Source: Muribaculaceae bacterium (lineage in GTDB: Bacteria > Bacteroidota > Bacteroidia > Bacteroidales > Muribaculaceae). From it: a stretch of 64,000 nucleotides of DNA. How positions within the stretch are numbered: position 1 is the stretch's first letter; each line of letters begins with the position of its first letter. This document shows positions 12,226 to 24,274 of this stretch, one piece after another. The stretch is from positions 25,356 to 89,355 of the forward strand of contig JAFZSO010000036.1 in the NCBI GenBank assembly GCA_017619355.1, given 5' to 3'. The notes under the pieces were generated by a model, which ran no database searches, was not told the DNA's origin, and saw only the letters and a list, made by a program, of their open reading frames with translations. The position numbers and the translations under genes are program-made.

Positions 12226-12268
12226 ATGAACTTGTGCCTCAATTGTTCATATGTTCTTAGTATCTTTG
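12226..12268 (+). promoter_or_regulatory. WYL-gene promoter with inverted repeat and TGTGCC half-site
   Basis: TATCTTTG (12261-12268) is a TAnnTTTG box 22 nt before the WYL start. Upstream, ATGAAC (12226-12231) and GTTCAT (12245-12250) form an inverted repeat. TGTGCC (12233-12238) places its TGCC exactly as far from TTTG as in the four module promoters downstream. The GGCA arm is replaced by TTCA. It is compatible with autoregulation by the WYL protein. Confidence 0.45.
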
Positions 12269-12290: not shown

Positions 12291-13232
12291 ATGGCAAACA
12301 AACTTATCAACAAGTATGTGTGGCTGGTCGAAACCATCTATCGGGCAGGCCGCATCACATTCGAGGAAATCAATCAACAATGGCTTGACGAAGAAATGGA
12401 CGACAAGCCCATTCCGTTGCGCACCTTTCACAAGTGGCGCATTGCCGCCGAGGAAATGTTCAACATCAACATTGAGTGCAAACGCATTGGCGGTTACCAC
12501 TACTACATTGACAACATCGATGATTTTAAAAGTGGCAGGTTACGTAATTGGCTTTTCAGCACAATTGCAGTAAGCAACCTTCTGCTTTCATGTCAGTCGC
12601 TGAAGGAGCGCATTCTTCTTGAAGATATCCCCTCGGGACAGAATCATTTGGCGGTCATCCTCGATGCCATGAAGGAGAACCAGGCGCTCAACATCACCTA
12701 CCACAGCTACTGGAAAGATGAGGAATACAACTTCGATGTGGAGCCTTTCTGCGTGAAACTGTTCAGGCAGCGTTGGTATCTGGTGGCCCTGAGCACCAAT
12801 GAATATTACAGGAAGAAAGGCCCTGCAATCTACGCCCTCGACCGCATTGCGTCGTTAATGAAGACCGGAATCACCTTTGCCATGCCCAACGATTGGGACG
12901 CCGATGCCTATTTCGACGGTTTCATGGGCGTTCTGCGTGAGAACGAATATGATAAAGAAATAGTGAAAATCAAAGTCACTGCCAGCCAGGCCAACTATCT
13001 GCGCGACCTCAAGATTCACCACTCGCAGCGGGAGGTGGAGCGCAACGAGCAATTCAGCATTTTCTCATTCTACCTGCGCCCCACCTTCGACTTCCAGCAG
13101 GAACTGCTCTGGAACGGCCCCGAATTGGAAGTGCTCGCCCCCCAGTGGCTCCGCACAATGATGGCCGAGAGAATTGAACAGATGCTGAACCTATACAAAA
13201 ATGACCCAAATAACAGCAAAAAAAGCATATAA
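12291..13232 (+). CDS. WYL-domain transcriptional regulator
   Basis: 313 aa. The N-terminal third is helix-turn-helix-like (INKYVWLVETIYRAGRITFEEINQQW, RTFHKWRIAAEEMFNINIEC). The WYL domain follows (ALNITYHSYW, FDVEPFCVKLFRQRWYLVALS), with the family's basic-aromatic patch, then a C-terminal WCX-like extension (KIKVTASQANYLRDLKIHHSQ). WYL proteins bind nucleic-acid ligands or nucleotides and often control anti-phage loci (known for BrxR and CapW). This one heads the accessory region and is followed by DUF262 genes and the ATPase/HAD module. Its own promoter carries an inverted repeat. Related stand-alone WYL genes are also common in Bacteroidetes chromosomes, so control of the neighbours is inference. 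Confidence 0.85.
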   Translation: MANKLINKYVWLVETIYRAGRITFEEINQQWLDEEMDDKPIPLRTFHKWRIAAEEMFNINIECKRIGGYHYYIDNIDDFKSGRLRNWLFSTIAVSNLLLSCQSLKERILLEDIPSGQNHLAVILDAMKENQALNITYHSYWKDEEYNFDVEPFCVKLFRQRWYLVALSTNEYYRKKGPAIYALDRIASLMKTGITFAMPNDWDADAYFDGFMGVLRENEYDKEIVKIKVTASQANYLRDLKIHHSQREVERNEQFSIFSFYLRPTFDFQQELLWNGPELEVLAPQWLRTMMAERIEQMLNLYKNDPNNSKKSI

Positions 13233-13357: not shown

Positions 13358-13912
13358 ATGACAGAAGAAAAACGTAATTCAATTGTAAACAAACTCGAAG
13401 TTTACATGAATAATGGTGATATACCATCTTTTATTCAGGTCTTGAAAGAAGACCTTTCTCAGGAATCTGCGATTAATGCATGTATATGTATTAGTGGAGC
13501 CATTTTGAAATGTCATACATTTTACAAATCTGACATGTTAGCTGCATTTCTTGAAAAAGCTATTCACTTTAACATGGATTGGGCTAAGTTCAGCGGAGGG
13601 AAGAATCCATTATTTCGTGTTGCTTTTCTAACAGGTTCTTGGGATCTGTACACATGCTTTATAGAAGAGGTAGAAGGGCTTGATGAAGTTGCATATGCTG
13701 ACGCATATGCTGACTGGCAGGATTTTAACGAGAAAATATTGGGCCACGCACAAATGTACATCAAAGGACGGGATTACAATAGTGGTTATGAAACAAATGG
13801 CCAACGAATCATCGATATGGAGGATTACGAGAAGATGAACTTTATGGCAGAAAACTACAACGCAATCATCGGCCGACATAAGATATTGAAGGACTTAGAG
13901 AATAGATTGTAA
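13358..13912 (+). CDS. Hypothetical protein, first gene of the DUF262 operon
   Basis: 184 aa, no signal peptide, no family recognised. It is helix-rich and acidic with several aromatic residues. A direct internal AYADAYADW stretch lies near residue 111. It is preceded by a good promoter and followed after only 10 nt by the first DUF262 gene, so it is co-transcribed with it. The DNA is AT-rich like the rest of the operon. A small accessory or regulatory partner of the DUF262 pair is the natural guess. It could also be an unrelated passenger. Confidence 0.6.
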   Translation: MTEEKRNSIVNKLEVYMNNGDIPSFIQVLKEDLSQESAINACICISGAILKCHTFYKSDMLAAFLEKAIHFNMDWAKFSGGKNPLFRVAFLTGSWDLYTCFIEEVEGLDEVAYADAYADWQDFNEKILGHAQMYIKGRDYNSGYETNGQRIIDMEDYEKMNFMAENYNAIIGRHKILKDLENRL

Positions 13913-13922
13913 TTAAACACTT

Positions 13923-15926
13923 ATGGCAGAAAATAAGATTGAACTAAAATCGGTGAATGAACTTCTTGGGATGAAGTTTTTTATACCTAGCTATCAGCGT
14001 GGTTATAGATGGACGGAGCAGCAAGTCAAGGACCTGCTCAATGACATTGAAGAATTCAGATTAAGGAACAAATCCATAACGGACTTTTATTGCCTTCAAC
14101 CACTTGTAGTCAGAGAGAATATTGATGACAAAAACAGTTTCATAAATAACCTACCCAAGGCAACTGATTTAGAAAAAGATGTCTTAGGTATAACACGAAA
14201 AGCGATATCTGAACATACAAAATGGGAAGTTATTGACGGGCAGCAACGCTTAACAACCATTCTCATCATTCTATCTTTTTTATCATCAAACGATGAAGGA
14301 AACAAACCTTACTCCATTGATTATCAAACCAGAAATGATTTTGATAAATTTTTAAACAAAATAAAGGATATTGATACCCCTGATATTCTTGAACAACAAA
14401 GCTTTGTTAAAGAAAAGTTCGATGAGGTTATAAAAAACGATGACAAATTCAACAATATCGATTTTTATCATATTTTTCAAACTCTAGCCACAGTCAAGCA
14501 TTGGTTTAACATTAATAATAATATTGATAAAAATGAGTTTAAGAAAACCATTTTAAATAGGGTTAAATTCATTTGGTATGAGTCTGTTGATGAAAATCCT
14601 ATTAAAGTCTTCACCCGGCTAAATATTGGCAAGATATCTTTAACCAATGCCGAACTTATTAAGGCACTATTTTTAAATCAATCAAACTTCCCGGGCATTG
14701 ACAACAATTCATTTAAGCTTAAACAACAAGAGATAGCAAGTGGATGGGATATTATTGAATACACACTGCAAAACGATGAGTTTTGGCTTTTCCTACACAA
14801 AAATGGATATAACCGCCCAACTCGAATAGACTTCATATTTGACTTAATTTGCGACCAAAATGCAATGAATTTGCCTGATAACACCCGTATTGGCACTGAC
14901 GGTTATAGAACATTCCGTTATTTTTATGAATACTTCAAACAGGGTGCGTCAGAACAAGATTCTAGAGAAATAGCAAAGGTTGAATCATGTTGGGATGAGG
15001 TGAAAAAGTATTTCCAGACATTCCAAGAGTGGTTCAACGATTTGGAAATGTATCATTATGTTGGTGTGTTATTGTCCGATGATTTTAATCGAGGTCTATC
15101 AGATATTGTGAGAAAGTGGACAGGAAGCAAAAACGAGTTTCTTAAATACTTAAAGGACATGATATCTAATGAAATTAAGGTTCCCGACGGCAAGTATTTT
15201 TGCAACGAAAATCATATTGAAGAGTCATTACATTTCGATTCTGAAAAAAAACTGATTCGGAAGATATTATTAATGCACAATATTCAAACTGTAATTAATC
15301 AGAATAAACAACTAAAAGAAAAAGAGGATTACCAACTACCCGTGTTCTATAAATTTCCATTCCACTTGTTTAAAAAAGAGAAATGGGATGTAGAGCATAT
15401 TGATTCTCATTCAAAGAATGACATGAATGATAAAGATTCAAAAAATGAATTCTTGTTGAATATTTATTACTCTGTTGATGATGAGACCCAGAAAAAAATC
15501 GAAGCATTCATCAATAATTCAGATGCTAACAATTGGGATGATTTCATTGAATATACGAAGAAACCAAAAGATTCATTGTCAGATGAAGAAAAGGACCAAA
15601 TTTGGAATTTTACTCTTTTGGATTATTCTACGAACCGCAGTTATGGCAACTCAATCTTTACTGCCAAGCGACGAATTATCATAGGTAAAGACAGAGGCAT
15701 TGCATTGCCAATACCGATAATCAAGAAAGAAAAAAACCAAAGCAAATTAAGTATTGGAGAAGAAGCAAAAGCTAAAACAGCATTCATTCCACCTTGTACC
15801 AAGAATGTTTTCATGAAATACTACACTCCAGTTTTGACGAATTACAATTATTGGACAAAACCCGATGCCGATGCATACAAACAGAATATTCTCGACATAC
15901 TGAAAGATTTTAAAGTTAGTAAATGA
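13923..15926 (+). CDS. DUF262/DUF1524 GmrSD-like protein
   Basis: 667 aa. The N-terminal DUF262 (ParB-like) motifs are IPSYQRGYRW at 21-30 and IDGQQRLTT at 104-112. In GmrS-type proteins this domain binds and hydrolyses nucleotides. Near the C-terminus, WDVEHIDSHS (His492, His496) and a later FTLLDYSTNRSYGNSIFTAKRR block match the DUF1524 His-Me nuclease layout. The family includes type IV restriction of modified phage DNA. Codon use is AT-rich: a 60-base sample at 14341 has 14 G/C, versus 32 at 27301, suggesting transfer. It shares an ATGA overlap with the second DUF262 gene. A defence role is likely; the target is unknown. Confidence 0.8.
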   Translation: MAENKIELKSVNELLGMKFFIPSYQRGYRWTEQQVKDLLNDIEEFRLRNKSITDFYCLQPLVVRENIDDKNSFINNLPKATDLEKDVLGITRKAISEHTKWEVIDGQQRLTTILIILSFLSSNDEGNKPYSIDYQTRNDFDKFLNKIKDIDTPDILEQQSFVKEKFDEVIKNDDKFNNIDFYHIFQTLATVKHWFNINNNIDKNEFKKTILNRVKFIWYESVDENPIKVFTRLNIGKISLTNAELIKALFLNQSNFPGIDNNSFKLKQQEIASGWDIIEYTLQNDEFWLFLHKNGYNRPTRIDFIFDLICDQNAMNLPDNTRIGTDGYRTFRYFYEYFKQGASEQDSREIAKVESCWDEVKKYFQTFQEWFNDLEMYHYVGVLLSDDFNRGLSDIVRKWTGSKNEFLKYLKDMISNEIKVPDGKYFCNENHIEESLHFDSEKKLIRKILLMHNIQTVINQNKQLKEKEDYQLPVFYKFPFHLFKKEKWDVEHIDSHSKNDMNDKDSKNEFLLNIYYSVDDETQKKIEAFINNSDANNWDDFIEYTKKPKDSLSDEEKDQIWNFTLLDYSTNRSYGNSIFTAKRRIIIGKDRGIALPIPIIKKEKNQSKLSIGEEAKAKTAFIPPCTKNVFMKYYTPVLTNYNYWTKPDADAYKQNILDILKDFKVSK

Positions 15927-18349
15927 TTCGTCTAACAGTCAAAATGAAGAAAACAATGGTAAACTATAAATCATCTCAAAAGATTTCTTTTTGGAAATTT
16001 CTAAAAACCACAAAAATAGAAATTCCCATCATTCAACGTGATTATGCTCAAGGTCGACTAGGAAAAGAATACCTAAGAAAAAGATTCCTTTCCAATTTAA
16101 GAGAAGCGCTAAACAATAAACAAGAACTAAAACTTGATTTTGTATATGGTTCTACTGAAAGTGGGACATTTTATCCTCTTGATGGACAACAGAGATTGAC
16201 AACACTTTGGCTCTTGCATTGGTATGTTGCTTTGATGTCCGATAATCTTAACGAAGACATCTGCAAAGTGCTTGAAAAATTTACATATGAAACCCGCATT
16301 TCGTCACGTGAGTTTTGCAAGAATTTATGTAACCCTAAATACTTTGAAAACTATGCAGACTACAAACCAGAAAGTTCAAGAAGAATTGTTGGTTTTATCA
16401 CAAGTCGCACTTGGTTCTATTCCGCTTGGAAACAAGACCCCACAATTCAAGCTATGCTTAGAATGCTTGGAGGAACACAAATAAAAGACAAAGATAACAA
16501 AGACATTATTGACGGTCTAGAAGAATTATTTCCTTGTCCTTTAGAGTGCCACATTCAGAAAAATGAAAAATTTATCCTAAAAAGAAGTTTTAAAAACTAT
16601 TGGGATGCATTAACTGGAGATGATTGTCCAATTGTTTTTTATCATTTTCCGTTTAAAGATTTTGGATTGTCAGGTGACTTGTATATCAAGATGAACGCTC
16701 GTGGCAAGCAATTAACCGCTTTTGAGAATTTCAAAGCGGATCTGATAGGCTATATTAGAAAACAAGCAGAAGAATCAACTGATAATAAAACTCAAAAAGA
16801 TTGGAATGAATTGTTAGATGCCAAGAATGGAATTCCCAAATTAATGGATACGACTTGGACAGACATTTTTTGGAATAACAAATCTGAAGAATATTCAATT
16901 GATGAAATTTACTTTGCATTCATAAACAGATTCTTCTTAAATGAACTTGTCTGCCAAAAGGATAATAACAATGAGTATCTCTACACAGCAAAACAACTTG
17001 AAGAAGATAATCCTATATTCTCTTATTTATACGGTGACAAGAGTGATGATACAATTATTGATTATGTTGGTTTTGAGAGATACAAGGATATACCACTATC
17101 ATTTTTAAAGAATCTTAGTAATACATTAAGTTGTATCCCTTATGCCATCAACTTATCTTCTTTTAATCCAAAGTGGGTTGGACAAGATTTTCAATATATC
17201 CCAATTTATAAAGAAATTTCAATATCATCGTTTGAACAAAAGGATAGGATTGCATTTCATGCCATATCAAAATATATTCAAAAGGGAACATTCGATGCTG
17301 TTTCATTCCAGCAATGGATGCGTGTCGTGTGGAATATAGTTGAGAATGCAGGAGTTAATTCTATATCTTCGATGATTGGTGTGATGCGTTTAATTGATGA
17401 ACTTTCTGAGCATTCTCATGTAATATATTCCTTCTTGTCCAAACAAGATTCATTAATCAAATCATCTGCTGCTAAAGAACAAGTATATGAAGAGCGTGTA
17501 AAAGCAAAACATATTTGTAATAAAGATTTTCGGGAAGAAGATATCATTTATGCCGAAAGTCATCCCCTATTAAAAGGATGTATAAGTGTAATTTTTAAAG
17601 ATGACAAGTGTGATGAAGTCTCTTTTGGTCAAACCATTCGAAAAAGAACAGATTTACTTGACGAGTTATACAATGCTGATGATGATTATAAGTTAGTAAA
17701 AGTTCTAGTTTCGCAATATAATAATCATCAACAAGTTGAAAAATTAAAATTGAAGAAAGACCCTGATAATTGGAAGAGTCTAGTTACAGACAAATTGAAA
17801 GATTGCTACAGGAAAAATGAGAATAATGTTATTAATAATAATTGTTCTGGATGGCAAAGTATGATATCAAAAACCCCTTTGATTAATAATAGCAGAGACT
17901 TAGGCAAGATATTAGGTGGTGATGGTAAAAGAACAGTTTTATGGGCCACGAATGGTTGCACATGGATTGCTTATGAAAATGTGATTCTTGATAAAGTTCA
18001 CAACAATCCAAGTCTTTCAGAACTAGTTAGAAACAAGACTATTGAATGTAATCAAAAGGTTAAAGATTGTGATTTCTTTTGGGGACAGAATATTGATTTC
18101 AAATATAATGAACATTTTTTTCGTTGGTATGACAACCCTAATGAAAAAGAGCTGGATGTATATTTGATGGAAGACAATTGGAAAGAATATAAACTTCGTT
18201 CCAAAGGACGAGACAGAAATACTGATGAAGGCAAAACAGACGAGGACACTTATTATTGTTTTCGAGTTGAAGATGGGATAACACCAGAACAGTTCTTAAA
18301 TAATTTGGACGATCTCATAAAAGAACATAATAACTCTGCTTCAAAATAG
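15923..18349 (+). CDS. Second DUF262 protein, long form
   Basis: 808 aa, starting in an ATGA overlap with the upstream stop. In-frame ATGs a few codons later (15944, 15956) are alternatives. DUF262 motifs: IPIIQRDYAQGR at about 34-45 and YPLDGQQRLTTLW with Asp87-Gly-Gln-Gln-Arg91. The conserved YIKMNARGKQLTAFENFKADL around 255-275 is also typical. No clear DUF1524 nuclease motif is seen in the ~400-residue C-terminal part. That part is Lys/Asn-rich with several Trp (NCSGWQSM, WATNGCTWIAYE). It is probably a functional pair with the preceding DUF262/DUF1524 protein, perhaps a sensor or regulatory half. The DNA is as AT-rich as its partner. Confidence 0.75.
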   Translation: MIRLTVKMKKTMVNYKSSQKISFWKFLKTTKIEIPIIQRDYAQGRLGKEYLRKRFLSNLREALNNKQELKLDFVYGSTESGTFYPLDGQQRLTTLWLLHWYVALMSDNLNEDICKVLEKFTYETRISSREFCKNLCNPKYFENYADYKPESSRRIVGFITSRTWFYSAWKQDPTIQAMLRMLGGTQIKDKDNKDIIDGLEELFPCPLECHIQKNEKFILKRSFKNYWDALTGDDCPIVFYHFPFKDFGLSGDLYIKMNARGKQLTAFENFKADLIGYIRKQAEESTDNKTQKDWNELLDAKNGIPKLMDTTWTDIFWNNKSEEYSIDEIYFAFINRFFLNELVCQKDNNNEYLYTAKQLEEDNPIFSYLYGDKSDDTIIDYVGFERYKDIPLSFLKNLSNTLSCIPYAINLSSFNPKWVGQDFQYIPIYKEISISSFEQKDRIAFHAISKYIQKGTFDAVSFQQWMRVVWNIVENAGVNSISSMIGVMRLIDELSEHSHVIYSFLSKQDSLIKSSAAKEQVYEERVKAKHICNKDFREEDIIYAESHPLLKGCISVIFKDDKCDEVSFGQTIRKRTDLLDELYNADDDYKLVKVLVSQYNNHQQVEKLKLKKDPDNWKSLVTDKLKDCYRKNENNVINNNCSGWQSMISKTPLINNSRDLGKILGGDGKRTVLWATNGCTWIAYENVILDKVHNNPSLSELVRNKTIECNQKVKDCDFFWGQNIDFKYNEHFFRWYDNPNEKELDVYLMEDNWKEYKLRSKGRDRNTDEGKTDEDTYYCFRVEDGITPEQFLNNLDDLIKEHNNSASK

Positions 18350-18650
18350 ATTATTTCAATCATTTGAGATTTCTTGGAGCTTCGCCAAATCGAGGTGCAG
18401 CTCCATTTTTATGAATCAAATGCGGGGGTCAAAAACTGCAAGGTTGCATTAAACTAGAGAGCAAGGATTATTGATGTAAATTTGCATCAAGTTAAGAATT
18501 ATTCCCCCTTATAAACATTGAAGTATGAAGAAAAAAACCATGTAGTATGAAAAAAATAGAAAATCCACCACCTGTGCCTTGATACGGCATAGGCTTGTTG
18601 TTTCTTTGTGGTGGAAATCTTTATTCATCACCAGTAAAAGTCATTTCATT
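18350..18650. other. Intergenic between DUF262 operon and ATPase/HAD module
   Basis: About 300 nt. There is no convincing terminator. The only clear signal is the first copy of the shared promoter element (18575-18608). The repeated phrase 'agtatgaagaaaaaa/agtatgaaaaaaata' near 18520-18560 is AT-rich and encodes nothing evident. Confidence 0.5.
18575..18608 (+). promoter_or_regulatory. Shared module promoter element, site A
   Basis: TGCC (18575-18578), 7 nt, GGCA (18586-18589), TAGGC (18590-18594), 10 nt, TTTG (18605-18608). Spacing is identical at sites B (19050), C (21601) and D (23329). The palindrome covers where the -33 box would be, and TTTG is the end of the -7 box. It is an operator or activator site in a Bacteroidetes promoter; the binding protein is unknown. 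The first downstream ATG is at 18651. Confidence 0.75.
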
Positions 18651-18755
18651 ATGCTTGAACTTAACATTGAACATATTAGAAAAGAACTAGAAGGCAAGAG
18701 CCATCTCTATATATTCACCACAACTAAAACAAAACACTATGATGAACTTCGATAA
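18651..18755 (+). CDS. Possible 34-aa leader or small protein
   Basis: ATG at 18651 lies 42 nt after the TTTG of site A. That is close to the 24-37 nt seen for the genes behind sites B, C and D, while the next gene starts 130 nt away. It encodes 34 residues (MLELNIEHIRKELEGKSHLY, then a Lys/Thr-rich tail) and overlaps the start of the 86-aa gene at 18739 by 17 nt in another frame. It may be a real first cistron that couples translation, or an untranslated leader. No family was recognised. Confidence 0.3.
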   Translation: MLELNIEHIRKELEGKSHLYIFTTTKTKHYDELR

Positions 18756-18999
18756 AGATTATTGGTTCTGTATTTATCTCGACGATGACGACGGTTATGT
18801 TGAGTTTACCATCAATTCGCTTGTTAAAGAAGAGATGGACAAGCTCTCAAAAGTAGTAAAAGAGCTTGGGGACTCTGACGATGAAATCCAAGCGATGAAA
18901 GAAGAATTTATCGATGCCTTGATTTATGATCTGACATCGTTAAAACACTCTGAAAGAATGATTCACTTAAGGCGCAAGCGACTAAATGGCTCCTCCTAA
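18739..18999 (+). CDS. Small acidic hypothetical protein (86 aa)
   Basis: 86 aa, strongly acidic in the first 65 residues (YLDDDDGYVEF, LGDSDDEIQAMKEEF) with a basic tail (MIHLRRKRLNGSS). No signal peptide and no helix-turn-helix were recognised. Two in-frame ATGs adjoin at 18739 and 18742. It is the only full-sized gene behind promoter site A, so it is probably part of the co-regulated module. DNA mimicry or a small inhibitor role would fit the charge, but this is speculation. Confidence 0.5.
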   Translation: MMNFDKDYWFCIYLDDDDGYVEFTINSLVKEEMDKLSKVVKELGDSDDEIQAMKEEFIDALIYDLTSLKHSERMIHLRRKRLNGSS

Positions 19000-19049
19000 G
19001 CACCCTATTTTGAATTGGTCAACATAAACAAAAACTTTTTTTGCACCTG

Positions 19050-19083
19050 TGCCTTGATTTGGCACAAGCCCCATCTAATTTTG
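19050..19083 (+). promoter_or_regulatory. Shared module promoter element, site B
   Basis: TGCC (19050-19053), 7 nt, GGCA (19061-19064), CAAGC (19065-19069), 10 nt, TTTG (19080-19083). The -7 box is a perfect TAATTTTG (19076-19083). The preceding ACCTGTGCCTTGAT matches site A closely. It drives the ATPase/DUF932/PLD operon, whose ATG lies 24 nt downstream. Confidence 0.75.
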
Positions 19084-19107
19084 TCCCAAAAACAAAAAAG
19101 AAATAAA

Positions 19108-19950
19108 ATGAGCGAGATTGTAAAAATGCGAGATGTGCGGTTTGACCCGGGACTGTTTGTGAACTTTCGTTCGGGAACAGTGCTTGATAACTTGCTGTGC
19201 AGTTATCAAGGGCTGCCGAAGGGAGTGAACTACATGGTCATTGGCGACCCAGGTGTGGGCAAGACCACCATCATTCTCGACCTGATAGCCAATATTGAGC
19301 GCCAAGCTGCCGGAACGCGCATCCTATTCATCAGTGCCGAGATGAACGAGATAGACCTTGCCGTGTATGTGCAACGCTATCCCAAGTTCGGCGACCTGAA
19401 CATCATGTTCGTGGAGTCGGACTTCGATAGCAAGCGCCACCACTTGCAGGAAATAGAGGATGTCCTACAACATGGTTGGGACATCGTTGCCATTGACTCG
19501 TTCCATGAGTTGCAGGGCATCGTCAAGGAGGAGGAAAACATCACCACGCGCCTTGCCGAGACCAAACTGCTGTCGCTCATCAAGCGGCACAACAAAGCCG
19601 AGAACGACACGCGCACCAACACCACCTTTCTCACCATACAACAAGTGACCAAGAGAGGGGCTTTCATTGGCTCCAACCGTCTGAAGCACATGATTACCGC
19701 CATGATGGAACTGCGGCTCGACAATCCCAAGAACATCTATAGCGACCGCTATGTGGTGTTCTCCAAGCATCGCCGAGGTGATGTGGGCGTGAAACTCTAC
19801 TACAGCCTCAGCTCAACGGGCGATGTCTCGTTTGACGAGCAGCGCTACCGCCAGGAACTGCAACTGCGCAATTTGCAAAGCAATGTCTCGACACAGCTTC
19901 GCGACTTCGCCACCCAATTCGACAATTTGTTTAATAACGAAATACAATAA
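19108..19950 (+). CDS. RecA/KaiC-like P-loop ATPase
   Basis: 280 aa from the ATG at 19108. An in-frame ATG at 19015 lies upstream of promoter site B and is rejected. Walker A is GDPGVGKTT at 46-54. Walker B is DIVAIDS at 125-131, followed by FHELQG. ISAEMNE near residue 74 and the QQVTKRGAFIGSNRLKH segment resemble RadA/KaiC/DnaB-type RecA folds. It has no lid, nuclease or zinc-finger domain, so it is a minimal RecA-fold ATPase. It starts a three-gene operon with a DUF932-like and a PLD-like gene (gaps of 4 and 3 nt). It could be a DNA-remodelling motor for the nuclease-like partner; the exact function is unknown. Confidence 0.72.
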   Translation: MSEIVKMRDVRFDPGLFVNFRSGTVLDNLLCSYQGLPKGVNYMVIGDPGVGKTTIILDLIANIERQAAGTRILFISAEMNEIDLAVYVQRYPKFGDLNIMFVESDFDSKRHHLQEIEDVLQHGWDIVAIDSFHELQGIVKEEENITTRLAETKLLSLIKRHNKAENDTRTNTTFLTIQQVTKRGAFIGSNRLKHMITAMMELRLDNPKNIYSDRYVVFSKHRRGDVGVKLYYSLSSTGDVSFDEQRYRQELQLRNLQSNVSTQLRDFATQFDNLFNNEIQ

Positions 19951-19954
19951 CATT

Positions 19955-21016
19955 ATGGACACCACTGAATTTTACCAAATCAAGCAGGAGGTGCTGTCAC
20001 GCCCCATCTGCTATCGCGAACTTGAAGCGAAAGAAATCATCGCCCTTGGCGAGAACCACTACACCGTGGGCAATGCCACATTTGAAGTCGAGCCCCGTGT
20101 GGCATCTAAAATCGACCGTTTTGCAGGAATTAGAAGCGGGCAATCGGCCGTTGCACACGACAGCTATGGCGAGCAGGGCTTGACCAACCTGCGCAACTTC
20201 TTTGGCCAGGCTGTCCCAAGAAAAAGCAAACGCATCGTCCTTGCTGCCGACACACAGTCAAAGCAGATTGTCGATGCCATCCCCATCCACGACCGTATGA
20301 TCACGCCCGAAGTATTCTTCGACTTCGCCGAGATGTTCATGGACAAGAATCAGTATCTTCCCGACAATGTAGAATACTCAATGGGCGGAAACGGCAACAT
20401 TTCCATTCTCATGAAGCCTGTCACCGAACAATTCATGGAATTTGCTCCGGGCGACGAATTCATGTTCAACGGCATCCAACTATTGTGGTCACCAGGCGAA
20501 GTCAGCCTGAACAATTATTATGAGCGACTGGTGTGCTCTAATGGTCAAACTCAGACTTCGCAGCATAGAATCGCAAAGGCTTTCTCGCCCGAAGCCTCCA
20601 AACTTGAGGCGTTGCTTGACGTTACTGTCGAATCAGAGCCCCTCAAGAAGAACCTTGACCAAATGCTTCTCAGCGCAAGGTTGGCTATGCGCACTTCAGC
20701 TTCGGTGCATGAACTGAAAGCCGCCATGAAAATGCTTAACGGTCATGGTTTGACGGAACAAGATGCCAACCAAATCGTCCCTTACGAGCAAACCAGATCG
20801 AAATATGAAACCGCTGGATTTCTCCTGAGTTCCACCGAAGAAGCACAAGCCAAGAGCGACCGCACGATGTGGGAGGTGTTCAACCTGCTCACTTTCTTTG
20901 CAACTCATAACACCGTGTGGGCACGGCAGGACATTCGCCGCTCATCGCTCATGGAAGCGAGCATGAACCTGCTGTTGCGAGAACGGGACATCAAGGAGTA
21001 TTACAACATTTTCTAA
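19955..21016 (+). CDS. DUF932-like protein
   Basis: 353 aa from the ATG at 19955, 4 nt after the ATPase stop. The longer frame from 19823 would overlap the ATPase gene and is rejected. The central MKPVTEQFMEFAPGDEFMFNG and NNYYERLVCSNGQ blocks recall DUF932 (phage/plasmid-like proteins, where an RxVCTNG motif is typical). The C-terminal half is helical (LEALLDVTVESEPLKKNLDQM, KAAMKMLNGHGLTEQD). DUF932 proteins are found on prophages, plasmids and defence islands, and their biochemistry is not established. Position between a RecA-fold ATPase and a PLD protein suggests a complex or pathway of the three. Confidence 0.55.
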   Translation: MDTTEFYQIKQEVLSRPICYRELEAKEIIALGENHYTVGNATFEVEPRVASKIDRFAGIRSGQSAVAHDSYGEQGLTNLRNFFGQAVPRKSKRIVLAADTQSKQIVDAIPIHDRMITPEVFFDFAEMFMDKNQYLPDNVEYSMGGNGNISILMKPVTEQFMEFAPGDEFMFNGIQLLWSPGEVSLNNYYERLVCSNGQTQTSQHRIAKAFSPEASKLEALLDVTVESEPLKKNLDQMLLSARLAMRTSASVHELKAAMKMLNGHGLTEQDANQIVPYEQTRSKYETAGFLLSSTEEAQAKSDRTMWEVFNLLTFFATHNTVWARQDIRRSSLMEASMNLLLRERDIKEYYNIF

Positions 21017-21019
21017 GAC

Positions 21020-21532
21020 ATGATTGAGTATATTGCTGACACCGACCATTACAACAAGGTGCTCGCTCAGGTGGCTAATGTGAAGCAGAGCCTATGGATT
21101 GGAACTGCCGACATCAAGGACTTGCACGTTAAAGTTGGAGCAACGACCAAGCCGTTTCTTGCCGTCATTGCCTTGCTCATCAGGCGAGGCGTGGCGGTAC
21201 GGCTCATTCATGCCAAGGAACCAGGACCAAACTTCCGAGAGGACTTCGATCGCTATCCTGTGCTGTATGACCGACTTGAGCGGGTGCTGTGTCCACGTGT
21301 GCATTTTAAAATGATGGTATTCGACGGCAAGGAAGTGTATATTGGCAGTGCGAACCTCACAGGTGCCGGCATCGGCATGAAAACCGCAGACAAGCGCAAC
21401 TTCGAGGCGGGAATCCTTACGGACGTTCCTGTTATCATCGAACAAGCCATGACGCAGTTTGATGATGTATGGCGTGGTTACCATTGCAAGTCTTGCCGTC
21501 GCAGGGACTTTTGCCCCGCCCCAATCAAATGA
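21020..21532 (+). CDS. Single-HKD phospholipase D-like nuclease with Cys tail
   Basis: 170 aa. One HKD motif: His95, Lys97, Asp102, then GSAN at 109-112 (VHFKMMVFD...IGSANLTGAG). Proteins with one HKD motif usually dimerise; the Nuc/bacterial endonuclease and NucC-like PLD nucleases are of this size. The C-terminal CKSCRRRDFCPAPIK forms a CxxC-x5-C cluster that could bind metal. It starts 3 nt after the DUF932-like gene, so translation is coupled. It is the probable effector (nucleic acid cleavage) of the operon, by family knowledge; phospholipid hydrolysis is less likely without a signal peptide. Confidence 0.78.
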   Translation: MIEYIADTDHYNKVLAQVANVKQSLWIGTADIKDLHVKVGATTKPFLAVIALLIRRGVAVRLIHAKEPGPNFREDFDRYPVLYDRLERVLCPRVHFKMMVFDGKEVYIGSANLTGAGIGMKTADKRNFEAGILTDVPVIIEQAMTQFDDVWRGYHCKSCRRRDFCPAPIK

Positions 21533-21600
21533 ATATAATGCACGAGAAAATTCTCTTTCTTGATGATTTTTCAAAAAAAATGATACCACCCTGCGAGTTG

Positions 21601-21634
21601 TGCCCCAAAGCGGCATAGGCCGTCTCTATCTTTG
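21601..21634 (+). promoter_or_regulatory. Shared module promoter element, site C
   Basis: TGCC (21601-21604), 7 nt, GGCA (21612-21615), TAGGC (21616-21620), 10 nt, TTTG (21631-21634). The -7 box is a perfect TATCTTTG (21627-21634). The AAA+ gene begins 37 nt downstream. A weak GAGAA-AA-TTCTC hairpin at 21544-21555 may end the upstream operon. Confidence 0.75.
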
Positions 21635-21671
21635 CCATGAAAGTTCACATGTAACAAAAAGGCATAAGATT

Positions 21672-23306
21672 ATGGCAACAAAACAGAAAATGGATTTGCT
21701 CACAGCAGTGGAGAAAATCGTCGACAAGGCAAAAGGTAGCGGGCTTAGCCCAGAATTCTACCAAAAGGCTAATAGGTATATAAAATATGTGTCAGAGAGG
21801 CTGGACCTCACCAGGGAACAAGCCGTCATGATGGCGTTGTTTATTGACAATAGCGACGACACGAGTATAACATTAGGACAATTCCTGGAATGCAGGACCA
21901 CAAGAATCATTAAACACATGGCAGACATTGATGAGTTGGAGAAAAAAGAACTCGTAAGGTGTAGCCGAGGATGCCGTCAAGTTTCGTATCGTGTTCCCAT
22001 AGAGGTGATTGAGGCATTCAAAAACAATGAGAAGTATGAGCCTAGAGATTGCTCTGGTCTTTCTTGCATGGAACTGTTCGGTGAGTTGGAAAGCATTCTT
22101 GAACAACGCCGTGATGATGAGTTGACTTACGAGGGGTTGATAGAAAAAATCCACCACTTATTTGAGGGCAACAAGCAACTTCTTTTTGTTCAAAAAGTGT
22201 TAAGCTATGGTTTGGATTACGATGAGGAAATGCTGCTGATATTATTCTCTCATCTGTTTGTCAACAATAACGACGACAACATCACGTTTGATGACATTAG
22301 ATTCTTATATGAGAAATGGTTGTGGAATCATGCGAAGTCACAGTTTAACCGCGGCGATCATGTGTTGTTAAAGAAAAAGCTGATAGAATACAACAATAAT
22401 GATGGTTTTATAAATAGAGAATGTTTTCGCATGACCAGCGAGGCAAAGCGTGAGCTGCTCTCTGAACTCAACTTGAAATCATTGGAATATAAAGCCAAGC
22501 GAAACGATGTCGTCAAGTGCGAAGACATCACGCCTAAAACGCTGTTTTACGGCGAGAAAATCAGTTCACAAGTAAATGAACTGGGAAAGTTGCTCGACGC
22601 CGAGCAATATAACAAGATTAGGACGCGCATGAAAGACACAGGATTCCGCTGTGCTTTCACTTGTCTGCTTTACGGTGCTCCAGGAACCGGCAAGACCGAG
22701 ACTGTGCTGCAGCTGGCACGGCAGACCGGCCGCGACATCATGCAAGTGAATATTTCTCAAATCAAGAGTTGCTGGGTTGGCGAAAGCGAGAAAAACATCA
22801 AGCAGGTGTTTGACAACTACAAGGCAAAGGTGAAAGAGAGCACGATTACGCCCATCCTCCTCTTCAACGAGGCCGACGCCATCATCGGAGAGCGTTTGGA
22901 AGGCGCAAAAAGCGCAGTTAATAAGATGGAAAACAGCATCCAGAACATCATCTTGCAGGAAATGGAAACACTCGATGGAATACTTATCGCCACGACCAAT
23001 CTTGCCCAAAACATGGACAAGGCTTTCGAGCGCAGGTTTCTCTATAAAATCAAGTTTGAGAAGCCAACCGTTGAAGCCCGCATAAGCATGTGGCACGAGA
23101 TGATTCCGAACCTGAACGAGGAACAATGTCGCACGTTGGCTTCAAAATACGACTTTAGCGGTGGACAAATCGAGAACATCGCCCGCCACTATGCCATCGG
23201 GAACATCCTGCATGGAGAACCAGAGAATGTAATTGAAGCGCTCTCGGCATATTGCGACAGCGAGCGACTGGAAACAAAAGAGCACCACAAAGTGGGATTT
23301 CGTTAA
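21672..23306 (+). CDS. AAA+ ATPase, FtsH/Cdc48-like module with N-terminal domain
   Basis: 544 aa from the ATG at 21672, placed correctly behind promoter site C; the longer frame from 21600 would start inside the operator. Residues 1-300 are helical with no recognised family. Walker A is GAPGTGKTE at 335-343. Walker B is PILLFNEADAI with Asn399-Glu400, where most AAA+ proteins have Asp-Glu. Sensor 1 is LIATTN, and an arginine pair in AFERRFLYKIKFEKP is placed as an arginine finger. The C-terminal lid (YDFSGGQIENIARHYAIGN) is classical AAA. No protease domain is present. It probably unfolds or remodels a partner, possibly of the neighbouring operon. Confidence 0.78.
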   Translation: MATKQKMDLLTAVEKIVDKAKGSGLSPEFYQKANRYIKYVSERLDLTREQAVMMALFIDNSDDTSITLGQFLECRTTRIIKHMADIDELEKKELVRCSRGCRQVSYRVPIEVIEAFKNNEKYEPRDCSGLSCMELFGELESILEQRRDDELTYEGLIEKIHHLFEGNKQLLFVQKVLSYGLDYDEEMLLILFSHLFVNNNDDNITFDDIRFLYEKWLWNHAKSQFNRGDHVLLKKKLIEYNNNDGFINRECFRMTSEAKRELLSELNLKSLEYKAKRNDVVKCEDITPKTLFYGEKISSQVNELGKLLDAEQYNKIRTRMKDTGFRCAFTCLLYGAPGTGKTETVLQLARQTGRDIMQVNISQIKSCWVGESEKNIKQVFDNYKAKVKESTITPILLFNEADAIIGERLEGAKSAVNKMENSIQNIILQEMETLDGILIATTNLAQNMDKAFERRFLYKIKFEKPTVEARISMWHEMIPNLNEEQCRTLASKYDFSGGQIENIARHYAIGNILHGEPENVIEALSAYCDSERLETKEHHKVGFR

Positions 23307-23328
23307 AACAATCATCACAAACAAATTA

Positions 23329-23362
23329 TGCCCCTATTTGGCATAGGCCAATTGTTTCTTTG
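23329..23362 (+). promoter_or_regulatory. Shared module promoter element, site D
   Basis: TGCC (23329-23332), 7 nt, GGCA (23340-23343), TAGGC (23344-23348), 10 nt, TTTG (23359-23362). It lies in the 92-nt gap between the AAA+ gene and the HAD gene, whose ATG is 36 nt downstream. The HAD gene thus has its own copy although it follows closely on the same strand. Confidence 0.75.
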
Positions 23363-23398: not shown

Positions 23399-24274
23399 AT
23401 GAATCGGGCAGAATTAGTACGACAAATACAACAAAAATACCAAATGAGGCAGTTGTTATTTGACTCCAAAGATGATGAAAAGGACAATATGTCAATTTGG
23501 CCATCTCAAGATGAAGCCCCATACAATATCGATAACATCTATCCTTTGACCATCATCAAGGATCGTTACCACGAAAGCGGATACTATTATTTGGCATTTA
23601 ATCTGGAGCCTTGGGATGTGCCCAAAGAAATCAATGATGACGGACTGGACTTTTGCGGATTCTTTCGCAACAAAGGCAAAAAACACATCATTGGCAAAGG
23701 AAACACGCCACAAGAGGCTCTTGATAATCTAATAGAAAAACTGCGTCCTGCGTCTGACAATCCTCTTGTGGACAAATATCTCTTTCTTGATTTTGATGGC
23801 GTGCTGAACACCGAGTTCTACCAAGACCTTTTGTTGTCTCAAGGCAAGCAATGGCAAGACGAGCATGGTGCGTTCTTCGACCCGGAGACGGTGAAGCAAC
23901 TTGAACGAATCATTGATGCCACGCAAGCCAGCATCGTGATAGAATCATCGTGGAAATATCTTGGACTCAAAGCCATGCAGGAAATGTGGCATGATCGCCA
24001 ATTGCCTGGACGAGTGATTGACATCACCTCATCCTGCGCCAGCGACAGTTGGTTGCAAGCTACCAGCATCGACGAAAACGACCTCAATCACTCCAAAGGA
24101 ATTGAAATCGCCTCTTGGCTTTTTGACCATGCTGCCGAAGGCACCCGATATGTCATCATTGACGACGAGTATGTGATACTGGATTCCCAGTTACCGCACT
24201 TTATCATGACCAATCCTTTTGATGGCATAACCGAAGAAGTGGCTAATCGGGCCATCGCCCTCCTCAACAACTAA
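23399..24274 (+). CDS. HAD phosphatase-like protein (HAD_SAK type) with N-terminal domain
   Basis: 291 aa. Residues about 50-115 form a separate domain (YPLTIIKDRYHESGYYYLAFN..., GKGNTPQEALDNLI). The HAD domain begins with FLDFDGVLN: nucleophile Asp131, acid Asp133. IVIESSWK supplies motif II, KGIEI motif III, and VIIDDEYV (Asp255/Asp256) motif IV. The IVIESSWK form is typical of the HAD domain described in 'Swiss army knife' RNA-repair proteins (PF18143-like, by memory). These are thought to remove 2'- or 3'-phosphates or act on nucleotides. Behind promoter site D it belongs to the same regulon as the PLD and ATPases, suggesting nucleic-acid end processing. Confidence 0.72.
   Translation: MNRAELVRQIQQKYQMRQLLFDSKDDEKDNMSIWPSQDEAPYNIDNIYPLTIIKDRYHESGYYYLAFNLEPWDVPKEINDDGLDFCGFFRNKGKKHIIGKGNTPQEALDNLIEKLRPASDNPLVDKYLFLDFDGVLNTEFYQDLLLSQGKQWQDEHGAFFDPETVKQLERIIDATQASIVIESSWKYLGLKAMQEMWHDRQLPGRVIDITSSCASDSWLQATSIDENDLNHSKGIEIASWLFDHAAEGTRYVIIDDEYVILDSQLPHFIMTNPFDGITEEVANRAIALLNN

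Follow-up and report, generated by a model that had tools for sequence, protein, structure and literature searches.

Which regulator reads a set of promoter sites of identical geometry in a Bacteroidales genome, and what do the genes behind them have in common? The question is raised by a 64-kb stretch of a Muribaculaceae genome (the window, taken at its full length), in which a sequence-only reading had noticed four sites of the form TGCC-N7-GGCA-YARGC-N10-TTTG with unchanged spacing and had assigned them to an unknown regulon under a single DNA-binding protein. We followed up this observation by comparing the sites, the genes behind them and the candidate regulators across related genomes. 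On balance, the sites appear to be activator-type operators of WYL-WCX transcription factors, which would form a DriD-like, probably damage-responsive regulon, with an island-encoded WYL paralog running the cassette in the window.

The pattern matches exactly at 18575, 19050, 21601 and 23329 (sites A to D), always on the forward strand. The distance from TTTG to the start codon is 42, 24, 37 and 36 nucleotides (nt), respectively, in agreement with the 24-42 nt given in the earlier description. At up to 3 mismatches, the window contains 5 matches against 0.57 expected (maximum over 100 shuffles: 3); the fifth of these is site B, which as a palindrome also matches on the opposite strand. In the whole source genome (2.63 Mb, 74 contigs, 89% complete), just these four sites were found at up to one mismatch, and the reversed-pattern control gave 0, so that the sites are indeed not random. 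The boundaries of the motif had to be redrawn: its core stood, but the conserved block extends to the left (TRTGCC), and YARGC is merely a part of the right arm. The full unit is TRTGCC-N7-GGCAYA-N9-TAnnTTTG, a dyad followed by a -7 box, in which the dyad occupies the -33 position and keeps a fixed distance from the box. These 36-nt units begin at 18573, 19048, 21599 and 23327, and all lie on the forward strand: A (18573..18608) reads TGTGCC-N7-GGCATA-N9-TTTCTTTG, B (19048..19083) TGTGCC-N7-GGCACA-N9-TAATTTTG, C (21599..21634) TGTGCC-N7-GGCATA-N9-TATCTTTG, and D (23327..23362) TATGCC-N7-GGCATA-N9-TTTCTTTG. As had been noted, two of them, B and C, end in a perfect TAnnTTTG box; B has a perfect core palindrome as well. 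Site A is additionally flanked by an inverted repeat that was found by eye, with CCACCAC upstream and GTGGTGG downstream (18565-18615).

A fifth, degenerate operator-promoter of the same 36-nt geometry, TGTGCC-TCAATTG-TTCATA-N9-TATCTTTG (12233..12268, forward strand), stands 5' of the gene whose product we propose as the binder of all five sites, a WYL-WCX transcription regulator of 313 amino acids (aa; 12291..13232, forward strand). In all five, the -7 box begins 9 nt downstream of the dyad end. The left arm of the fifth site is full and the right arm poor, and its degenerate right half, TTCATA, recurs 5' of WYL genes at loci L113 and L115. Both domain matches of the window protein are above cut-off (Pfam WYL 8.2e-13, WCX 5.7e-11). 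It had no Pfam helix-turn-helix match at 0.01, and 38 aligned WYL proteins share a conserved N-terminal block. A profile of site-associated WYL proteins (A1) had hits in 99 of the 101 genus genomes and retrieved the window protein at 9.9e-132. The source genome has two WYL matches on separate contigs, the island gene at 12291-13232 and a core gene on contig C73; neither a tandem WYL pair nor a fusion, as known for PafBC, was seen in it. The word "unknown" used for this regulon was therefore half right: in the open-licence literature we found no account of such an operator, or of WYL control of recA, in Bacteroidales, but the kind of regulator is recognisable and a candidate gene for it lies in the window.

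In relatives, too, the operator site stands 5' of WYL-protein genes. We retrieved 30 WYL loci by protein similarity, of which 29 were usable (L114 had no usable open reading frame, ORF), and searched the 200 nt upstream of the WYL gene. A site within 3 mismatches was present at 15 of the 29 loci, compared with 0/2900 shuffled copies, and a site within 5 mismatches at 24 (shuffled copies: 61/2900). Conversely, on named contigs retrieved by the DNA pattern alone, a WYL gene was the first downstream ORF at 11/116 sites; the downstream table covers 112 of 118 loci, with L369-L374 left out. The position of the palindrome was analysed in 44 WYL promoters, which include some loci retrieved by motif. 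With the -7 box closest to the start codon as reference, 27 of the 44 promoters pair at 6 or more of 9 positions at the fixed place upstream of it, and the maximum at ten other offsets was 5/44. When the box with the best palindrome was chosen instead, 29/44 had at least 6/9 pairs with a spacer of 7, and other spacers from 3 to 13 gave at most 1/44. We preferred the slid-offset control because many of the loci behind the control with other ORFs (63/410 with at least 6 pairs) were themselves retrieved by motif. The two arms change symmetrically, as TATGCC/GGCATA, TGTGCC/GGCACA, TCTGCC/GGCAGA, TCGGTC/GGCCGA and TATGCA/TGCATA. Operators of the TCGG type go together with K-R-W recognition helices (8/9 versus 1/25 elsewhere; Fisher p 4e-6, relatedness ignored). 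At locus L048, a WYL gene and an ATPase homolog diverge from one site-bearing region.

A scan of related genomes with a table of downstream genes, as the sequence-only reading had proposed, found the motif above reversed controls and recurrent gene families 3' of it. The original pattern at up to one mismatch was matched in 39 of the 101 genus genomes (control: 2), whereas the full unit gave 120 matches in 55 genomes (reversed control: 1). When the distance between dyad and -7 box was allowed to vary from 0 to 30 nt, 50 of 55 matches in the 101 genomes shared one spacing, and the control gave 0. A draw across the family gave matches in 74 of 347 genomes, spread over 15 of 30 genera; since 71 matches outside the genus compare with 8 control matches in these 347 genomes, part of the genus tally is due to chance. 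Exact matching over named genome contigs returned at least 118 stretches, against about 30 chance matches that we estimate for the whole collection. Among the 80 listed, 75 were named Bacteroidales or Bacteroidia (Muribaculaceae, Prevotellaceae, Rikenellaceae, Paludibacteraceae and others), and the remaining five were SAR86, Ruminococcaceae, Eubacterium, Brachymonas and Granulosicoccaceae. A set of 118 unique sites revealed conserved positions beyond the pattern, namely T before GGCA (0.78) and CA after TTTG (0.86 and 0.73), as well as A/T-rich DNA upstream of the dyad. The geometry is thus conserved while the spacer letters vary, as expected of the selected regulatory code that had been postulated.

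This code is not limited to the four units from which it had been described: related genomes have the architecture in front of recA and of many further genes. Similarity clustering of the genes 3' of 260 unique sites, a mixed collection of loci, identified a 40-aa family (28 sites), AAA+ proteins like that behind site C (18), a 100-aa family (16), WYL proteins (14), recA (9) and the family of the window ATPase (7). FtsK, RarA/MgsA, Cas3-like, Cas6, PD-(D/E)XK, CoiA and RtcB proteins were encoded there in single or few cases. Among the 30 best-scoring recA loci, a count that stands for the best matches and not for all recA loci, 8 carry the dyad at 11 or more of 12 positions. A homolog of the 100-aa protein in the source genome itself (48% identity, 1.4e-19) is preceded by TGTGCA-N7-GGCATA-N9-GAACTTTG, with exact geometry and two mismatches. 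Many genus genomes contain two recA matches on separate contigs.

Several of the recurrent families are small proteins. The family of 40-42 aa (MNT..TL..L.SM.SSE.SY..LVDM..EMDLELMD) lies directly 3' of the operator, among others in L273, L295, L301, L312 and L317; a stricter letter pattern found it at 19 sites instead of the 28 obtained by clustering, and one member had no NCBIfam match. A family of 75-106 aa (NGR.LA...F.S.DEVV...AG.F.GLARLT.RN.TQGWS; L206, L204, L241, L437, and L445 of the source genome) follows both operator types, the second of which is described below; the one member searched had no Pfam or NCBIfam match, and the family may belong to the core of the recA set. A membrane-like peptide of 45 aa (MKEIINIIE...) is encoded 3' of the operator in L041, L160, L161 and L223, and we presume a resemblance to the small membrane toxins induced in the SOS response. 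Paralogs of about 280-470 aa (KYVLTDDSITVDGRRLYRIE...GGYIEHEGNLSH) were seen in L280, L167 and L174; in L280 they are arranged in tandem, each with its own similar operator-promoter. CRISPR-type genes (Cas3-like, Cas6) are found 3' of the operator in L240, L145 and L367, which may mean that CRISPR genes respond to the signal of the rest of the regulon. The genes had been proposed to act as one system under one regulator. A single regulator is probable, but shared control is no proof of one machine.

Some genomes of the genus have their core WYL gene directly upstream of bcp-recA. Ten genomes with this arrangement (G019, G023, G026, G045, G048, G070, G076, G083, G090, G097) have no TGTGCC-type site at up to one mismatch, and others (G010, G031, G077, G098) have one or two each. 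Most of these bcp promoters contain a second operator, ATGGGYAA-N5-TTGCCCAT, whose centre is one base further from the -7 box. Pairing over 18 bcp promoters peaked solely at this place (mean 5.44/8, at least 6 in 10/18; other centres at most 1/18); the set excludes L406 of G023, where a bcp gene with a TT-type box is present but the palindrome is missing, and regions in which no bcp gene was found, e.g. L411 and L413. At 3 mismatches, the second operator had 21 hits in 18 genomes of the genus (control: 0), and 16 of the 21 precede bcp, usually bcp-recA. One hit in G077 precedes the 100-aa family, which has TGTGCC sites in other genomes. Part of the gene set is thus kept while the operator letters change. 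The recognition helices of the core WYL proteins read R[ST]FYN followed by YR, FR or HR in the genomes with the WYL-bcp-recA arrangement; in genomes with TGTGCC-type recA sites, where resolved (G022 and G072, with unresolved WYL starts, are left out), they read R[ST]F, then HT, HH, YR, NN or MT, then YR. In G001, G022, G039 and G065 (86-95% complete), the single WYL protein found was of the core type, which makes the core protein, as judged from these comparisons, the best candidate for the regulator of recA. In G039, contig C40 (L383), the frame of the core WYL gene is unusually long, at 684 aa counted from the start codon used, and may encode a fusion.

We compared these proteins and sites with known systems, whose properties are given here as stated in excerpts of the cited reports. 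A profile of the 38 WYL proteins matched PDB chains of PafBC and DriD at 7.9e-21 to 5.9e-17, and those named BrxR or CapW at 0.0089-0.015. DriD of Caulobacter crescentus, a WYL activator that senses single-stranded DNA (ssDNA), binds the palindrome ATACGAC-N7-GTCGTAT, which overlaps the -35 element at a constant distance from the -10 element, and its targets include DNA-repair genes (preprint PMC12340889); it regulates recA (PMC11804915). The proposed regulator thus shares with DriD the WYL-WCX architecture, a palindrome with a 7-bp spacer, the -35/-33 position, the constant distance to the -10/-7 box and DNA-repair targets. It differs in the half-site letters, the Bacteroidetes-type -7 box, paralogs with diverged operators and the island cassette. 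PafBC, a WYL activator of the mycobacterial DNA-damage response, binds ssDNA and reprograms the sigma-A polymerase (PMC11804915). It is an activator of a damage response, as proposed here, and the best PDB sequence match to our profile, but it is a heterodimer that reads a -26 motif and does not bind promoters without polymerase, whereas here one gene and a palindrome are found. CapW and BrxR resemble the window system as WYL proteins that occur beside defence-type genes and bind palindromic sites. However, CapW sites overlap the -10 element (PMC9122588) and BrxR repeats lie downstream of the predicted -10 (PMC9122601), whereas the window dyads end 9 nt upstream of the -7 box, and the sequence match of these proteins to the WYL profile is weak. 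The two LexA-like groups described in Bacteroidetes would also control a damage-type set including recA; they are S24 peptidases and not WYL proteins, their motifs (GGA-N5-TCC and CTAA-N5-TTAG) differ from the window sites in letters and spacer, and both are reported to be absent in Bacteroidales (PMC8565304).

The mechanism that we propose is as follows. A WYL-WCX dimer would bind the TRTGCC-N7-GGCAYA dyad and thereby cover the place of the -33 element, and its contact with RNA polymerase would let the ordinary sigma factor start at TAnnTTTG, 9 nt downstream. The island WYL protein (12291-13232) would run the WYL-GmrSD-ATPase-PLD-AAA-HAD island and, weakly, its own gene, and the core protein (contig C73) would probably run a chromosomal set including recA. 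The inducer would most likely be ssDNA from damaged or invading DNA. We prefer activation over repression, and ssDNA as the signal, since the geometry is DriD-like and the proteins are closer to PafBC and DriD than to BrxR and CapW; the identity of the binder we infer from the adjacency of WYL genes to the sites and from the joint changes of operator and helix. A wider reading, which we advance tentatively and can neither favour nor dismiss, is that WYL activators run the DNA-damage response of LexA-less Bacteroidales through the dyad and TAnnTTTG, that recA and the small proteins are a core with drifting operator letters, and that mobile islands with their own WYL paralogs share this code, so that ssDNA would switch on defence genes as well.

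Several observations weigh against this interpretation. No site was found at up to one mismatch in 46 of the 101 genus genomes, and the site of the window WYL gene itself is only half-matching. In the protein-retrieved WYL loci, other ORFs also had sites (4/96 within 3 mismatches, 6/96 within 5). The statistic relating K-R-W helices to operators treats related loci as independent. WYL proteins of the RTWDNHRRE class (L048, L101) have no palindrome 5' of their own gene. The dyad at 11/12 or more was missing at 22 of the 30 best recA loci, and the recA promoter of the source genome, TGTGCA-N7-GGCACG-N10-TAAATTTG, has an imperfect dyad and one extra base before the -7 box; the recA site of G092 deviates likewise. 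The helix RTFYNYR occurs in L407 with the second operator and in L406 with the bcp promoter that has no palindrome; as the two share the helix yet differ in the operator, the pairing of core helix and operator is loose. Finally, no such site stands 5' of the core WYL gene itself, so that what ties this gene to recA is its adjacency in one lineage, together with the operator change there.

These facts have to be set against the alternatives. The WYL protein could be a repressor like CapW or BrxR that blocks RNA polymerase at the dyad until a ligand arising from phage attack releases it and switches the island on. The island is defence-like (a GmrSD pair, PLD, an IetA-like AAA+ protein), excerpts of PMC9122588 and PMC9122601 describe WYL repressors for such islands, and a site 5' of the regulator's own gene fits either sign of control. 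Nevertheless, we consider repression unlikely, given the upstream location of the dyad at the -33 place with near-constant spacing, unlike the reported CapW and BrxR sites, and a sequence much nearer to DriD and PafBC. We give still less credence to the idea that a different DNA-binding family reads the sites and that WYL genes are just frequent targets. It would accommodate the core WYL gene without a site and the four genomes whose single WYL protein is of the core type, but it leaves unexplained why the operators of WYL genes change on both arms, why one operator class pairs with one helix class, and why spacer and position match those given for a WYL factor in the DriD preprint.

Near-constant spacing to the -7 box would also be expected of a promoter for an alternative sigma factor with GGCAYA as its -35 box. 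This is very improbable: the -7 box resembles that of ordinary Bacteroidetes promoters, and the element in front of it, a dyad in which a change in one arm is matched in the other, does not look like a sigma -35 box. That the four sites, all within 5 kb, are recent copies made by duplication within the island is hardly credible. Spacers and flanks differ at kept geometry, no identity was seen by eye outside the fixed blocks, and many other genomes have the unit in front of unrelated genes, as the sequence-only reading, which had rejected recent duplication, would lead one to expect. Three further candidates were discarded. A sigma-54 promoter does not fit by eye at its -24/-12 elements, a LexA-like repressor is disfavoured by the fixed spacing and the different known Bacteroidetes LexA motifs, and an RNA hairpin would stay untranscribed, the dyad being upstream of the -7 box.

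The genes around the sites all lie on the forward strand. Downstream of the WYL gene are a 184-aa protein (13358..13912) that had no hit among PHROG or NCBIfam families at the cut-offs applied, a GmrSD_N (DUF262-type) protein of 667 aa (13923..15926; Pfam 1.5e-30) and a second GmrSD_N protein of 808 aa (15923..18349; Pfam 5.4e-18). Unit A (18651..18999) consists of a 34-aa ORF (18651-18755) overlapping an 86-aa ORF (18739-18999), whose product has a 92% homolog in L043. Site B is followed by a RadB/RadA-like RecA-fold ATPase of 280 aa (19108..19950; RadB model 5.8e-11, below cut-off), a 353-aa protein (19955..21016) and a PLD-like nuclease-type protein of 170 aa (21020..21532; Pfam PLDc_2 4.4e-13; DrmC/NucT-like, below cut-offs). 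The 353-aa protein has no family assigned by Pfam or NCBIfam, and the DUF932 label it had been given did not hold: Pfam gave no match at 0.01 and NCBIfam just VirB11 at 0.048. A search of viral contigs for relatives of the ATPase gave 3 loci; such relatives (40% identity) occur on long viral-classed contigs in IMG/VR (L034, L035). Site C precedes an AAA+ protein of 544 aa with an IetA/IteA-like ATPase domain (21672..23306; Pfam AAA 7.6e-25, IetA 2.7e-30, IteA 6.8e-27, below cut-off), and site D a HAD_SAK_2 protein of 291 aa (23399..24274; Pfam 5.4e-23). Genes for WYL, the GmrSD-like pair, the RadB-like ATPase, PLD, the IetA-like AAA+ and HAD_SAK proteins recur together with the sites in varying combinations in G063, G012, G050, G062 and others, and an RNase_T-type exonuclease gene often adjoins the WYL gene in related islands. 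From its gene content, the set looks like a variable defence- or repair-type island.

The reported absence of LexA-like repressors in Bacteroidales, as far as the excerpt of PMC8565304 goes, leaves the damage response of these common gut bacteria open. If our interpretation is true, it would provide an operator, a regulator family and a testable list of genes for this response, and WYL activators would extend beyond mycobacteria and Caulobacter. The analysis has also uncovered several families of small proteins (40, 100, 75 and 45 aa) that, as far as known here, have nothing but this promoter in common. Moreover, a defence-type island would then be using the same promoter geometry as recA.

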